A stretch of DNA of 60,887 nucleotides from a virus: the IMG/VR virus record IMGVR_UViG_3300028196_000013, positions 1 to 60,887 of that record. One strand, 5' to 3'. Position numbers and translations under genes: made by a program. Below, in pieces: positions 26,556 through 60,887 of the stretch; the stretch's first letter is position 1, and every line of letters begins with the position of its first letter. Below the pieces are notes generated by a model that searched no databases, was not told the DNA's origin, and saw nothing but the letters and a program-made list of their open reading frames with translations.

Positions 26556-26813
26556 ATGACCATGAAATTACCCGTAGGAGTAGTGGATAATCAACTTGCT
26601 TGGCACATCGATTCGGTGTTTGCTAAGCGTTTTGATAGAATCCAATGCGCAGAACAGAATAGATTATGGAATATTTGCCAAAAACGAATGGAACAAAAAA
26701 GGTTGAACTCAACCTCAGTATCCTGTCCGAATGGCAAATGGCAAATTGAAATCGATTTCAAAACAGCGGGAGATATCGCATACCAGTGGTGTCTTCTTGC
26801 AGAAGGAAACTGA
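26556..26813 (+). CDS. Small protein, first gene after the RNA region
   Basis: 85 residues; ATG 26556 is preceded by AGGGA rather than the junction motif. Basic-aromatic protein with three Cys and several Trp; a helix at residues 15-50 (SVFAKRFDRIQCAEQNRLWN). It ends in Asn-TGA, which forms the first junction motif. Possibly an RNA-binding partner because of location, but that is only inference. Confidence 0.6.
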   Translation: MTMKLPVGVVDNQLAWHIDSVFAKRFDRIQCAEQNRLWNICQKRMEQKRLNSTSVSCPNGKWQIEIDFKTAGDIAYQWCLLAEGN

Positions 26814-26815
26814 AC

Positions 26816-27334
26816 ATGTCTAATTTTAGAGGACGCAGCAGACGAAAGAATGTAGATAAGAGGATAACACCATTTATCGCAAACAAGAACATCGCAATAC
26901 TTCGGTCAGAGGTTTTGGTCGAGGTTCGCATTGGAAAGTCGCATGAAAATTTCACTTTGCCCTGGAGCCGAGTGGTTGGTCAGACTGTTATAGGCAAACT
27001 GCCTTTAGAGAGACAACCAGAATATCTCCAGAAAATAGCCAAGAGTCTTGGTGAGCATTTACTCTGGAACGGGCCACAGACACCACCGTGTCTCAATCCC
27101 GATACAGTTGAAAATTTCATGAGTAACGATGAATTCCTCGAACGACAAGCCCTTCGAAAGATGGGGCCTAACAGTCGAAAAAACAGAGGAAACAAAGGAA
27201 AGAAAATGAAACAAGGAATTAGCAAGAACCAAAATCACACATTTGTGAACAAACATGGAGTGTTGATTCTGAACGGTAGTCAAGCAACTGCCGACAAGAA
27301 AGCGAAAGAACGAGCGCAAGGCGAGTTCTATTGA
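26816..27334 (+). CDS. Basic protein between the RNA regions
   Basis: 172 residues from the junction ATG. Very basic at both ends: N-terminal RGRSRRKNVDKR and C-terminal Lys-rich NRGNKGKKMKQG followed by SKNQNHTF. The centre (about 25-100) is alpha/beta. High charge and position between two structured RNA regions suggest an RNA-binding protein. It is followed by TTAACTGAAC and a normal GGGGA ribosome binding site for the next gene. Confidence 0.65.
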   Translation: MSNFRGRSRRKNVDKRITPFIANKNIAILRSEVLVEVRIGKSHENFTLPWSRVVGQTVIGKLPLERQPEYLQKIAKSLGEHLLWNGPQTPPCLNPDTVENFMSNDEFLERQALRKMGPNSRKNRGNKGKKMKQGISKNQNHTFVNKHGVLILNGSQATADKKAKERAQGEFY

Positions 27335-27357
27335 TTAACTGAACAGGGGAATTTATT

Positions 27358-29307
27358 ATGAACCGAAAAATGAGCGCTGAAGGCGCAATAAAAAGCAATG
27401 AAAAGGACGCACACCTATTTGTGCGAATATTGACCGTTATGGTGAATATGTTGACACTGATGAAGACGGAAACCATGGGAATGTTTTTCCGTCTTGACAT
27501 CAAGAATGACCCAGCCAACCGCGTTGGGTCTGAAACAACCAAGGGTGCGCTTGTTGAGATTCAATTCAACAGCAAACTGGTTGAAAAACTTGTGAAACTG
27601 ACATCAGCAATGGTGAACAAGTTTCATGCCGGCAGAAAAAGTCGGCGCAAAATGTCAACAGACACCGACGAACCAATATCTGCATCAGATGAAACTCCAA
27701 ACTGGGACGATGTTCCGTTTGTAGCTTTCATCGTGAGGCAAGTCTATAGGATCTTGGCAGCACCGAAGTACATTTGTTCCGTCGAAGGGAGCGAATACTT
27801 CAATGAATGCTATTACAAAGTCGGTTGTGAAGCCGGCAAGATAACGATCCAAATACAAGATTGGGCTCGAGGAGAACGAATTGCAACTGGCAGTTCAAAG
27901 ACAGGCTTTAAGAAGAGATGGACCAACAAACATTGGAACCATGGACATCAGCCATTCCTCAGAATCAATCATGCTACCTACAACGAGTTAATCCGAAGTG
28001 GGCAAAAAGCAAGAACAACAACGCCGCGTGGAAAAGTCCTTGAAACAGAGGAAGACGCGCAAAAATACAACCAAGGAAAGAAAGACCGGATGCTGTATAT
28101 GAATGCAGCTTTGGCCGTTCAAACCATCTTGAAGTTTACTCCTGAAAAGGGATTCGTCAAGGAAGGTCACGGCCACCCAGTAGGTTACTACATCGAATCA
28201 GGGAAAGCCCCGAACAGGCACACCCGAGTCGTTGGATACATCTACGCTAACGAAGACACCCGGTTCCGAGTCAAAGGACTCAAAGAAGACCAACTTGAAA
28301 CTGTTTACACATATCCTAACCACTTTGGCGGGGACCGTGAATCGAACGGTAGAGATGCAGCCTTCTTCCTGAGAGACTCCGTCCTTGGAGAGAAAAAGCG
28401 AAATGGTGGCCGAGGGGCCTCCAGTATCAAATTTGGAGACAAGTCAAGCAAGAAGAAGGAAGTCATTGCGCACTTCCAACAACCTGCGAAGGAACTCTTC
28501 AAGAAAGGCAAAGGCGGAGCATTCGTCCTAACGCAAAAAACCGTGGAATATGTATTCAATACAGACATCTGCGGTGGAAAGTATCGGACAATTGCAACGC
28601 AACTCAAACTCAGACAACGACGCGAATCAACAGTGACTCTTGGAGATGCACTTTTGGGGAGCGAAAGGGGCATGTTTTGGAAGATGCTCATGTCGATTGG
28701 CCCGTTCTCATCAACACCTACCCCAGAACACAAGGTTCGTGAAGGCTTCGGCCAACTGAACCCCAAGTTTGCGGATGGCGTGAGAACAGTCCCTCGTAGG
28801 AGTAAGGAGAATGACAAAGGTTGGACCGAGCGTGGTCTACTGAATTCAAAGGTTAGCTGGAAGGCAGGGGCAATTGGGCCTCGTGCCTGCGGCAACGCCT
28901 GTGAATGCTTCTTATGCCAAGGCAACGAAATTTCTGACGAATTGAACGGATTGTTTGACGAAGACTTACGCAGATTGACTGGTTTGGGCAACTACGACGC
29001 CCCTACCTTGATCCCAGTGATGTCTCGAGACGATGTCCCCGTGTTGAATTACGGGACTGCAGGCAATCCAGATGATGACGCCGAGCAAGCATTGATGCTG
29101 AATACCATGAACGCACATTTTGACACCGATACCTTCCCGATGTGGATTGAAGCGGACCAGTGGAATGCCAAGCAAGGCTTCACCATTGGTGCCCAACTCA
29201 TTTCACGACCAGCGACGCCTGCGGACACAGGCAGACCTGGACACCGGTTGGGATCGGACGAAATTGAATTTGTTGAACTTGTAGCATACCCAACTCACAT
29301 CGAGTAA
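27358..29307 (+). CDS. 649-residue unknown protein flanked by RNA arrays
   Basis: The largest rightward protein in the window. ATG 27358 has GGGGA seven bases upstream, unlike its junction-motif neighbours. The middle (about 100-420) is basic and rich in Lys, Arg, Gly and aromatic residues. A Cys cluster CGNACECFLC at about 520 looks like a zinc knuckle, and the C-terminal 100 residues form an acidic alpha/beta domain. No nuclease, helicase or polymerase motif is evident. Lying between the two RNA regions, it is the best candidate to bind or process those RNAs. A distant RAMP or capsid-like fold cannot be judged by eye. Confidence 0.75.
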   Translation: MNRKMSAEGAIKSNEKDAHLFVRILTVMVNMLTLMKTETMGMFFRLDIKNDPANRVGSETTKGALVEIQFNSKLVEKLVKLTSAMVNKFHAGRKSRRKMSTDTDEPISASDETPNWDDVPFVAFIVRQVYRILAAPKYICSVEGSEYFNECYYKVGCEAGKITIQIQDWARGERIATGSSKTGFKKRWTNKHWNHGHQPFLRINHATYNELIRSGQKARTTTPRGKVLETEEDAQKYNQGKKDRMLYMNAALAVQTILKFTPEKGFVKEGHGHPVGYYIESGKAPNRHTRVVGYIYANEDTRFRVKGLKEDQLETVYTYPNHFGGDRESNGRDAAFFLRDSVLGEKKRNGGRGASSIKFGDKSSKKKEVIAHFQQPAKELFKKGKGGAFVLTQKTVEYVFNTDICGGKYRTIATQLKLRQRRESTVTLGDALLGSERGMFWKMLMSIGPFSSTPTPEHKVREGFGQLNPKFADGVRTVPRRSKENDKGWTERGLLNSKVSWKAGAIGPRACGNACECFLCQGNEISDELNGLFDEDLRRLTGLGNYDAPTLIPVMSRDDVPVLNYGTAGNPDDDAEQALMLNTMNAHFDTDTFPMWIEADQWNAKQGFTIGAQLISRPATPADTGRPGHRLGSDEIEFVELVAYPTHIE

Positions 29308-29337
29308 GGTTTGAACGACTGCAGATTTTGGATGAAG

Positions 29338-59829: not shown

Positions 59830-59836
59830 ACTGAAC

Positions 59837-60004
59837 ATGGTAAAATGGAGCGACGGACATCCGAGAAAAACAATCATGAACAAAATCATCAATGGGAAAC
59901 TTCCCTATGATTGCCCCGGTTGTAAGCGGGCTAAATGGTTTGAACCACTTGATGACGGGAAGTGGTCTTGCCCGAAATGCAAGACAATATTGGAATTTGA
60001 CTGA
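59837..60004 (+). CDS. 55-residue zinc-ribbon protein
   Basis: CPGC near 26-29 and CPKC near 46-49 with a basic/acidic mixture; a typical four-Cys ribbon. Both ends are at junction motifs. Confidence 0.65.
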   Translation: MVKWSDGHPRKTIMNKIINGKLPYDCPGCKRAKWFEPLDDGKWSCPKCKTILEFD

Positions 60005-60006
60005 AC

Positions 60007-60297
60007 ATGACGATAAAGTTGACAAAAAAGAATCTAAAAAAATTAGCTAAAAAAATGAAAGATGCAGACCCCGAACTTATGGATGAGTCAGCAACACATC
60101 GTTCTTCTGCAATTGCAGAATTCGGACGGGTCCACTTTAGCGAATATTTTGAATTTGTTCCTGCGCCCGATGCAGACGACAATCTAATGGAAGCAGACTG
60201 CAACGCCAAAATAACCGGATACACAATAAACGGAATTTACTTTTCAGAAGAAGAAGTAAGGACCATAGTACGGCTGCACAGCCCGCATAGAAACTGA
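60007..60297 (+). CDS. Small unknown protein
   Basis: 96 residues. The first 30 are Lys-rich (MTIKLTKKNLKKLAKKMKD), the rest alpha/beta with EYFEFVPAPDADD and VRTIVRLHSP. Unknown. Confidence 0.55.
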   Translation: MTIKLTKKNLKKLAKKMKDADPELMDESATHRSSAIAEFGRVHFSEYFEFVPAPDADDNLMEADCNAKITGYTINGIYFSEEEVRTIVRLHSPHRN

Positions 60298-60299
60298 AC

Positions 60300-60887
60300 A
60301 TGGAAGACGAAGAAAAAAGAGATTGGCAAAATTGGAATAAAAACAATCGACACCCATTCAGCCAGAAGAATGACTTTTGGACACCGAATGAAGTGTTTAA
60401 TGCTCTTGAAGATAGATTCGGACCTTTTGAAGTAGACCTTGCAGCAAGTGATGAGAATCATCTCGTTGACAAATACTACACTATTGACGACAATGCCTTG
60501 CTAATGGAGTGGAATGGCACCGCTTGGTGCAACCCACCGTATGTGAAGCAAGCAGACAAAACCACGCTGAAACATTGGATAACGAAAGCCCGTGAATCAG
60601 TAATTGAGGGAGACGCCCACAGAATTGTAATGCTGATCCCTGCATACACCTCAAATGGATACTGGCACACGGAAATTTTCCCGTATGCTTCGCATCTCAT
60701 TTTTTTTAGATACCGCCTTGATTTTGGTGGACCATTTCAAAGAACTGGCGGAGCTTCGAGGCAACCTTCTGTTGCTGTTGTTTGGTCAAAGGTGTGGAGT
60801 GGAGCCAGCACGCAATTGCTGACAATGTCAAACAAAGGTGAATGGCTGACCGAAGAGGTTTGGGATAGAGAATTGCTTTCCCTGCGT
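60300..60887 (+). CDS. Phage-type DNA N6-adenine methyltransferase, 3'-truncated by the window
   Basis: 196 residues visible; the frame is open to the window end. FWTPNEVFNAL, PFEVDLAAS near 43, and WCNPPYV near 80 (motif IV NPPY) match the DNA N-6-adenine methyltransferase (Dam) family of phages. RIVMLIPA and the GGASRQPSVAVVW strand follow as usual. It probably methylates viral DNA in addition to the enzyme at 41395. It starts at a junction motif. Confidence 0.85.
   Translation, partial: MEDEEKRDWQNWNKNNRHPFSQKNDFWTPNEVFNALEDRFGPFEVDLAASDENHLVDKYYTIDDNALLMEWNGTAWCNPPYVKQADKTTLKHWITKARESVIEGDAHRIVMLIPAYTSNGYWHTEIFPYASHLIFFRYRLDFGGPFQRTGGASRQPSVAVVWSKVWSGASTQLLTMSNKGEWLTEEVWDRELLSLR

Follow-up and report, generated by a model that had tools for sequence, protein, structure and literature searches.

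A lineage-specific seven-base word at gene starts and structured RNA ends in half the genome of an archaeal virus

The stretch of DNA analyzed here, referred to as the window (W), is the 60,887-nt IMG/VR virus record IMGVR_UViG_3300028196_000013; it encodes TFIIB-like and PCNA-like proteins and is therefore assigned to an archaeal virus, as the first-pass annotation of the sequence had proposed. In one half of this genome nearly every gene begins with the string ACTGAACATG, which consists of the 7-mer ACTGAAC and, with zero spacing, the start codon ATG (ACTGAAC-ATG). Exact copies of the 7-mer also stand where no gene begins, which indicates that it marks the boundaries of RNAs and not translation starts only, and related viruses carry words of their own in the same slot. 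The reading toward which we lean, as somewhat more probable than its alternatives taken together, is that a factor directs the cutting of polycistronic RNA between the motif and the AUG, which would yield leaderless single-gene mRNAs and free the structured RNAs.

The word at gene starts and RNA ends in the window

The first-pass annotation described one uniform string at the start of about 70 consecutive viral genes, beginning at 26811. The count agrees, with 69 exact copies of ACTGAACATG, all on the + strand and none in the left half, the first at 26809-26818 and the last at 60293-60302; the comparison with expectation that it suggested gives a mean of 0.19 copies and a maximum of 2 in shuffled versions of W. 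The uniformity is also confirmed, in that there are only 6 one-mismatch copies on the + strand, of which 2 (TCTGAACATG at 30955 and 55743) truly start genes.

26809 to 60302, + strand: motif block, 69 exact copies of ACTGAACATG at consecutive gene starts
30955 to 30964, + strand: TCTGAACATG, one-mismatch copy that starts gene 30962-31336
55743 to 55752, + strand: TCTGAACATG, one-mismatch copy that starts gene 55750-56091

The few block genes without an exact motif have their ATG at 26556 (the first gene), 27358, 30962 and 55750 or lie near 36438, where the motif is degenerate, and near 45600, where a GTG or ATG start is preceded by a terminator-like hairpin; the gene at 27358 has ACTGAACAGG 20 nt upstream, together with AGGGGA, which resembles a Shine-Dalgarno (SD) sequence. 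Upstream of the motif, A is preferred at -1 (54 of 69 copies) and at -2, and no other conserved signal was found in W, the flanks of the copies being unrelated.

The annotation took the string to be a single-purpose cistron (start) signal, and this description is not supported: the same 7-mer stands without a start codon past the last genes that precede hairpins, and it lies between structured RNAs.

27338 to 27344, + strand: ACTGAAC 3 nt past the stop of gene 26816-27334, with no ATG after it (the next ATG, at 27358, has AGGGGA upstream)
45350 to 45356, + strand: ACTGAAC where gene 44263-45354 ends, directly before a 14-bp hairpin and with no ATG after it; a boundary copy without a start codon
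49697 to 49703, + strand: ACTGAAC where gene 48193-49701 ends, with no ATG; the next motif is 41 nt on
29892 to 30305, + strand: non-coding array with 7 copies of ACTGAAC and linkers ACTTAACAACTGAAC between hairpin units
29907 to 30460, + strand: near-identical hairpin RNAs in five units that fall into two kinds (GGAAGAGGGC... and GGAGAATGCC...); a related sixth unit lies past the tRNA
30312 to 30388, + strand: tRNA-Arg(UCU), with ACTGAAC before it (at 30299) and CTTAAC after it; its encoded terminal A is the A of ACTTAAC
30388 to 30394, + strand: ACTTAAC, a position-4 variant that abuts the tRNA 3' end; a relative, G2 (see below), has the same arrangement at 19193
30471 to 30513, + strand: terminator-like hairpin (GAACCAGTCTCGA..TCGAGACTGGTTC + T8), closely followed by the motif gene at 30543, where GGAGG is present as well

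The stems of the array are 9-11 bp long, and five of them begin on the base that follows ACTGAAC; the hairpins are bracketed, the first stem base lying right after ACTGAAC and the last right before ACTTAAC, and within the linkers the motif is doubled, with copies 8 nt apart.

Words, stop codons, and overlaps in related viruses

G2 (IMGVR_UViG_3300020470_000017, 49.8 kb) was identified by scanning for pairs of motif copies spaced a gene's length apart, and protein scans added G7 (3300017746_000001, 128.8 kb), G8 (3300020446_000001, 127.6 kb), G403 (3300031588_000005, 36.7 kb), two 12-kb fragments, and the distant G11 (61.5 kb); for G2, G7, and G8, coordinates are those of the reverse-complemented record, in which the motif is on the + strand. 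The other contigs from the motif-pair scans contained at most 4 copies and were attributed to chance, among them G3 and G4, which have 4 copies each and almost nothing in common with W. A host-wide signal was also rejected, since a scan of genome contigs gave only 20 scattered contigs with a motif pair.

Each of the relatives G2, G7, G8, and G403 has one word before ATG: ACTGAAC in G2 (44 copies, on one strand only), ACTGACC in G7 (60 copies) and G403 (59 copies), and ACCGCTC in G8 (87 exact copies, plus position-4 variants such as ACCACTC), where about 0.1 copies of the own word before ATG are expected per virus. No copy of ACTGAACATG is present in G7, G8, or G403. W and G2 have about 20 proteins in common, some of them from a structural module that is collinear and lies on the opposite strand; orthologous genes, among them those for radical SAM, DNA methyltransferase, and PAPS-reductase-like proteins and families of unknown function, are preceded by the word of their own genome. 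This holds for 20 reciprocal-best ortholog pairs between G2 and G7, 18 between G2 and G403, and 10 between W and G8. The annotation had considered it damaging to its proposal if related viruses had the same gene order without the motif; what is found is that the genes and the slot before them are kept and the 7-mer is different.

The ATPase of G2 is 79% identical to that of G403 and its companion fragment (which we infer, from their shared sample, to be one virus), 69% identical to that of G7 and 53% to that of W. G2 is thus closer by its proteins to G403, yet shares its word with W; the words of G2 and G403 differ at one position in every copy, and there are no leftover copies of the other version in G2, G7, or G403. 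One position was therefore switched throughout, along a fairly short branch, and such concerted, lineage-specific replacement of letters suggests a co-evolving reader. Position-4 variants (ACTTAAC, ACTAACC, ACTTACC, ACCACTC) cluster in the non-coding leaders described below and at first genes. No such word was seen in the distant G11, which has no recognizable block genes, so that it provides weak evidence on origin.

Copies without a start codon recur in the relatives. In G8, exact boundary copies at 79219, 83250, 95045, and 116186 follow a last gene and are succeeded by an intergenic stretch with no ATG (those at 79219, 95045, and 116186 precede hairpins), an exact copy at 73951 lies 20 nt past a stop with no start codon, and variant boundary copies are found at 90000 and 96494; in G7 the copy at the end of its block, at 55373, is followed by ATA. 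A 10-bp stem ends at -1 relative to the G8 copy at 72871, and an 8-bp stem starts at +7 relative to that at 116186. The 3' end of a tRNA abuts ACTTAAC in both W and G2 and is 2 nt from ACTAACC in G7.

In W, 46 of 68 junctions have the upstream gene ending in the TGA within the motif, which bears out the annotation on this point; 16 upstream genes (it had counted about 15) end 4-15 nt before the internal TGA, with the string intact, and 6 leave a longer gap. Its further claim, that the string is kept independently of the stop codon, is strengthened by the relatives, whose stops lie outside the motif: among the 30 G2 junctions whose gap is ≤60 nt, 27 have the upstream stop before or outside the motif, and the G8 word contains no stop codon in any frame. 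The use of the TGA in W is opportunistic. Genes of the block also avoid overlapping. Only 5 of 256 upstream open reading frames (ORFs) in W, G2, G7, and G8 run past the ATG of the next motif, whereas outside the block 42 of 134 adjacent same-strand pairs overlap (31%, a figure that depends on the choice of start), and in G8 an ATGA stop is on offer at 51 of 87 sites but is used about 2 times.

How the word may be read

The 7-mer (ACTGAAC, or ACTGACC or ACCGCTC in relatives) would, in the mechanism that we prefer, mark RNA boundaries and be read by a factor that acts in trans with sequence specificity and is probably virus-encoded. The block would be transcribed from few promoters as long polycistronic RNAs, and the factor, or a nuclease recruited by it, would cut each mark, most likely between the internal UGA and the A of the AUG. 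Each mRNA would then start at or within a few nucleotides of its AUG, and the upstream ORF would retain its stop; the same cut would detach the terminator hairpin from the final gene of a transcript and release hairpin RNAs and tRNAs from the leader. In W the UGA that is used sits 5' of AAC, the only window in which a cut spares both genes, so that a cut within AAC would preserve the upstream stop and leave the downstream mRNA leaderless, and hairpins that begin directly after ACTGAAC agree with this. A search of viral leader RNA in five viruses for a complement to the motif, with G-U pairs allowed, found no consistent covarying site (host RNAs lay outside this search), which makes a protein the likeliest reader; that the word changes between viruses points to a viral origin of this reader.

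Several observations weigh against cleavage. Most motif copies do precede an ATG, and the bracketing of structured RNAs comes mostly from a single array in W. Inside block genes the 7-mer is not depleted (4 copies seen, 4.7 expected), implying either that it may not suffice alone or that the power of the comparison is too low. The 5 ORFs that cross a motif would be cut, and several motif-less junctions in G2, G7, and G403 resemble ordinary ATGA couplings. No candidate nuclease or RNA-binding protein was found, Pfam and PDB profile searches with the best candidates being empty, and structure models of the first block gene product and of a conserved structural-module protein were of low confidence and were not used.

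The two fastest evolving proteins are no more than leads to the reader. One is the TFIIB-like protein, which adjoins the leader in W, G2, G7, and G8 and is 38% identical between G2 and G7, compared with about 60-77% for most of its neighbors.

23513 to 24607, - strand: TFIIB-like protein, a candidate transcription factor for the block

The other is the product of the first block gene, of about 600 residues (G2 20658-22493, G7 14916-16676, G403 1720-3453), whose 22-28% identity among these three viruses reflects much faster divergence than that of neighboring genes and which has no credible Pfam or PDB match. No gene that could be a reader stands out as common to W and G2, which have the same word, as against G7.

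If cleavage is taken together with the exchange of letters, the word can be viewed as a private, evolvable punctuation code, an extension that we would advance only tentatively: a single lineage-specific word, replaced at all 40-90 sites together, would delimit all viral mRNAs and structured RNAs in half of the genome, and a virus-encoded reader would track it, such that only the virus's own transcripts were cut into leaderless mRNAs.

The strongest alternative, which we nevertheless regard as unlikely, is a dedicated translation signal, in which the 7-mer and AUG recruit ribosomes on a polycistronic mRNA through a viral initiation factor or a modified ribosome and so replace the SD sequence. 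Nearly all copies are indeed directly against ATG at a fixed spacing of zero, the genes are tightly packed (stop-to-motif distances are mostly 0-4 nt), stops and starts 2-10 nt apart would permit re-initiation, and copies without ATG inside genes are not avoided. SD sequences are also lacking, as the annotation stated: 5 nt of GGAGGTGA at -18 to -4 are present in 2 of 69 motif genes, as opposed to 10 of 33 genes outside the block when the first possible start is used, 15 of 33 when a later start is allowed, and 4% of random positions. Its companion statement, that the genes on the left are led by SD sequences, is correct as a contrast but not as a uniform rule. Nor does the motif act as a site of complementarity to the 3' end of 16S rRNA (GGAGGTGATC): most motif genes in four viruses have no 5-nt match, and the letters vary between relatives. 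A signal for translation alone leaves the exact copies past the last gene before hairpins (W and G8), between hairpin RNAs, and around tRNAs unexplained because they have no start codon. Moreover, the ATGA overlap, the usual layout for re-initiation, is avoided at the motif though present elsewhere, the figures given above (5 of 256 ORFs; about 2 of 51 available ATGA stops in G8) being at odds with termination-reinitiation coupling, and no wobble-tolerant complement is conserved in the viral leader RNA.

Less likely still is a promoter element at the start site, in which a viral transcription factor, with the TFIIB-like protein as candidate, recognizes the motif as an initiator and every gene or RNA unit has its own leaderless transcript. 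This would account for leaderless starts, for copies before non-coding RNAs, and for units separated by terminators, and it fits the fast divergence of the TFIIB-like protein. However, no TATA, B recognition element (BRE), or other conserved base was detected at -45 to -6 in five viruses (≤0.19 bit per position), and the AT content at -40 to -20 equals the block average in all five; a per-gene promoter with a TATA box was rejected for this reason. Copies placed exactly at the 3' ends of the tRNA and hairpins, or doubled 8 nt apart in linkers, are not needed for initiation. A promoter explains the copies without a start codon less well than an RNA boundary does, since the sequence upstream shows no conservation and 3' ends bear the mark as well.

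We consider it very improbable that the word is a cassette boundary at the DNA level, a site of recombination or transposition for gene shuffling that owes its uniformity to recombination between copies. W, G2, G7, and G8 all encode a conserved serine recombinase, and gene conversion could homogenize copies and so help explain complete replacement, but the element is only 7-10 bp, is strictly on one strand, and is in register with ATG in the coding direction; changes at position 4 are tolerated in the same leader context in several viruses, and the motif flanks are unrelated. Finally, a by-product of codon usage or stop-start packing, the refutation that the annotation itself had named, can be dismissed, since the use of the TGA at W junctions is set against relatives that place the stop outside the motif, a G8 word that has none, and an expectation of about 0.1 copies.

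Known systems, leader region, and other genes

The nearest description found is that of the Start-Associated Sequences (SAS/ESAS) of cluster K mycobacteriophages, short asymmetric repeats of unknown function beside the starts of non-structural genes in one half of the genome and in one orientation (PMC3203893). The SAS is 13 bp long (GGGATAGGAGCCC-type), is present in 11-19 copies, contains AGGAG, an SD sequence, and is separated from the start by 3-7 bp, most often where the intergenic gap is large; from one subcluster to another the extended inverted repeats vary, and the core repeat is not replaced (PMC3203893). The present word is similar in its single orientation beside start codons (69 of 69 copies in W on the + strand before ATG, with the left half devoid of them). 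It differs in that ACTGAAC has no SD core (2 of 69 genes have an SD sequence nearby), in its 44-87 copies, its zero spacing, its occurrence at almost every junction and also at RNA ends without a start, and its changing core letters.

Non-segmented negative-strand RNA viruses have a uniform, virus-specific gene-end/intergenic/gene-start signal and produce one mRNA per gene. At the level of genome organization the word resembles these junction signals, without being one of them: their signals act on an RNA genome through the viral polymerase, whereas this is a DNA virus in which no viral RNA polymerase was recognized. Coronavirus transcription-regulating sequences (CUAAAC, ACGAAC) are likewise lineage-specific strings of 6-8 nt before each gene, but they guide discontinuous RNA synthesis that joins a leader; there is no RNA genome here, and the likeness in letters is taken to be chance. 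Phage and toxin RNases (T4 RegB at GGAG; MazF) cleave viral or cellular mRNA sequence-specifically near translation starts, but their sites are existing SD or ACA sequences, in contrast to a dedicated 7-mer at every junction and RNA end; no homolog of RegB or MazF turned up among the proteins scanned.

In agreement with the annotation, no earlier description of such a signal was found, in literature of which the coverage was partial, so that a description may have escaped notice. Among described DNA viruses we found none that carries a uniform, near-exact signal at practically all gene boundaries in half of its genome, and none whose boundary signal is swapped genome-wide between close relatives. 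The novelty lies in the phenomenon; the mechanism is a proposal. Two questions are raised: the identity of the reader, and the way in which about 50 sites can change in concert with no old version left. If the word is a cleavage code, viral gene expression in archaea would gain a new mode; this would also account for expression from a compact operon without SD sequences and direct attention to a family of sequence-specific RNases whose specificity varies naturally. In metagenomes, the motif by itself can serve to detect fragments of these viruses and to connect them.

A leader separates the TFIIB-like gene from the block in four viruses (W 24607-26556, G2 17952-20651, G7 12655-14909, G8 69457-73621).

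24607 to 26556, + strand: long non-coding leader with repeated elements, at the same position in relatives
25641 to 25672, + strand: tandem ACTTAAC (position-4 variant) in the non-coding leader

Tandem CCGATGGC-type elements are found in the leaders of W, G2, and G7, and other repeats in that of G8, where tandem repeats of about 137 bp (TACCTCCTGTGGCACTATGCTACGAGCAAC...) lie at 69400-70000. At a permissive threshold, Rfam gave only the tRNA as a credible match in the W leader. A tRNA-Lys(CUU) lies in or near the leader of the relatives (G2 19117-19193, G7 13914-13990, G8 complement 68266-68340).

The best archaeal match of the viral tRNA-Lys, at 91% identity, is in three genomes of about 1.5 Mb, which belong to the phylum of a Euryarchaeota metagenome-assembled genome; among 390 genomes compared as possible hosts, none had a homolog of the ATPase. 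A tblastn comparison of the packaging-ATPase-like protein (15337-16086) with 50,697 INPHARED records gave no match, so this homology connects the virus to no known archaeal virus family, and relatives were found only among IMG/VR contigs. The group is presumably marine, judging by the sample numbers of some relatives.

Small paralogs that match DUF3860 or are related to it are encoded at 23146-23544, 35248-35529, and 55323-55562 of W and also in relatives. The genes at 39197-40231, 41395-42246, 44263-45354, and 46746-47867 of W encode a conserved set (radical-SAM-like, N6/N4 DNA methyltransferase, PAPS-reductase-like, and a 373-residue family without matches) that possibly serves DNA modification. 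Giant proteins of 2,100-3,000 residues are encoded in G7 (92434-98889 and 109801-118770) and G8 (31663-39057), and parts of them match G11 with up to about 70% identity.

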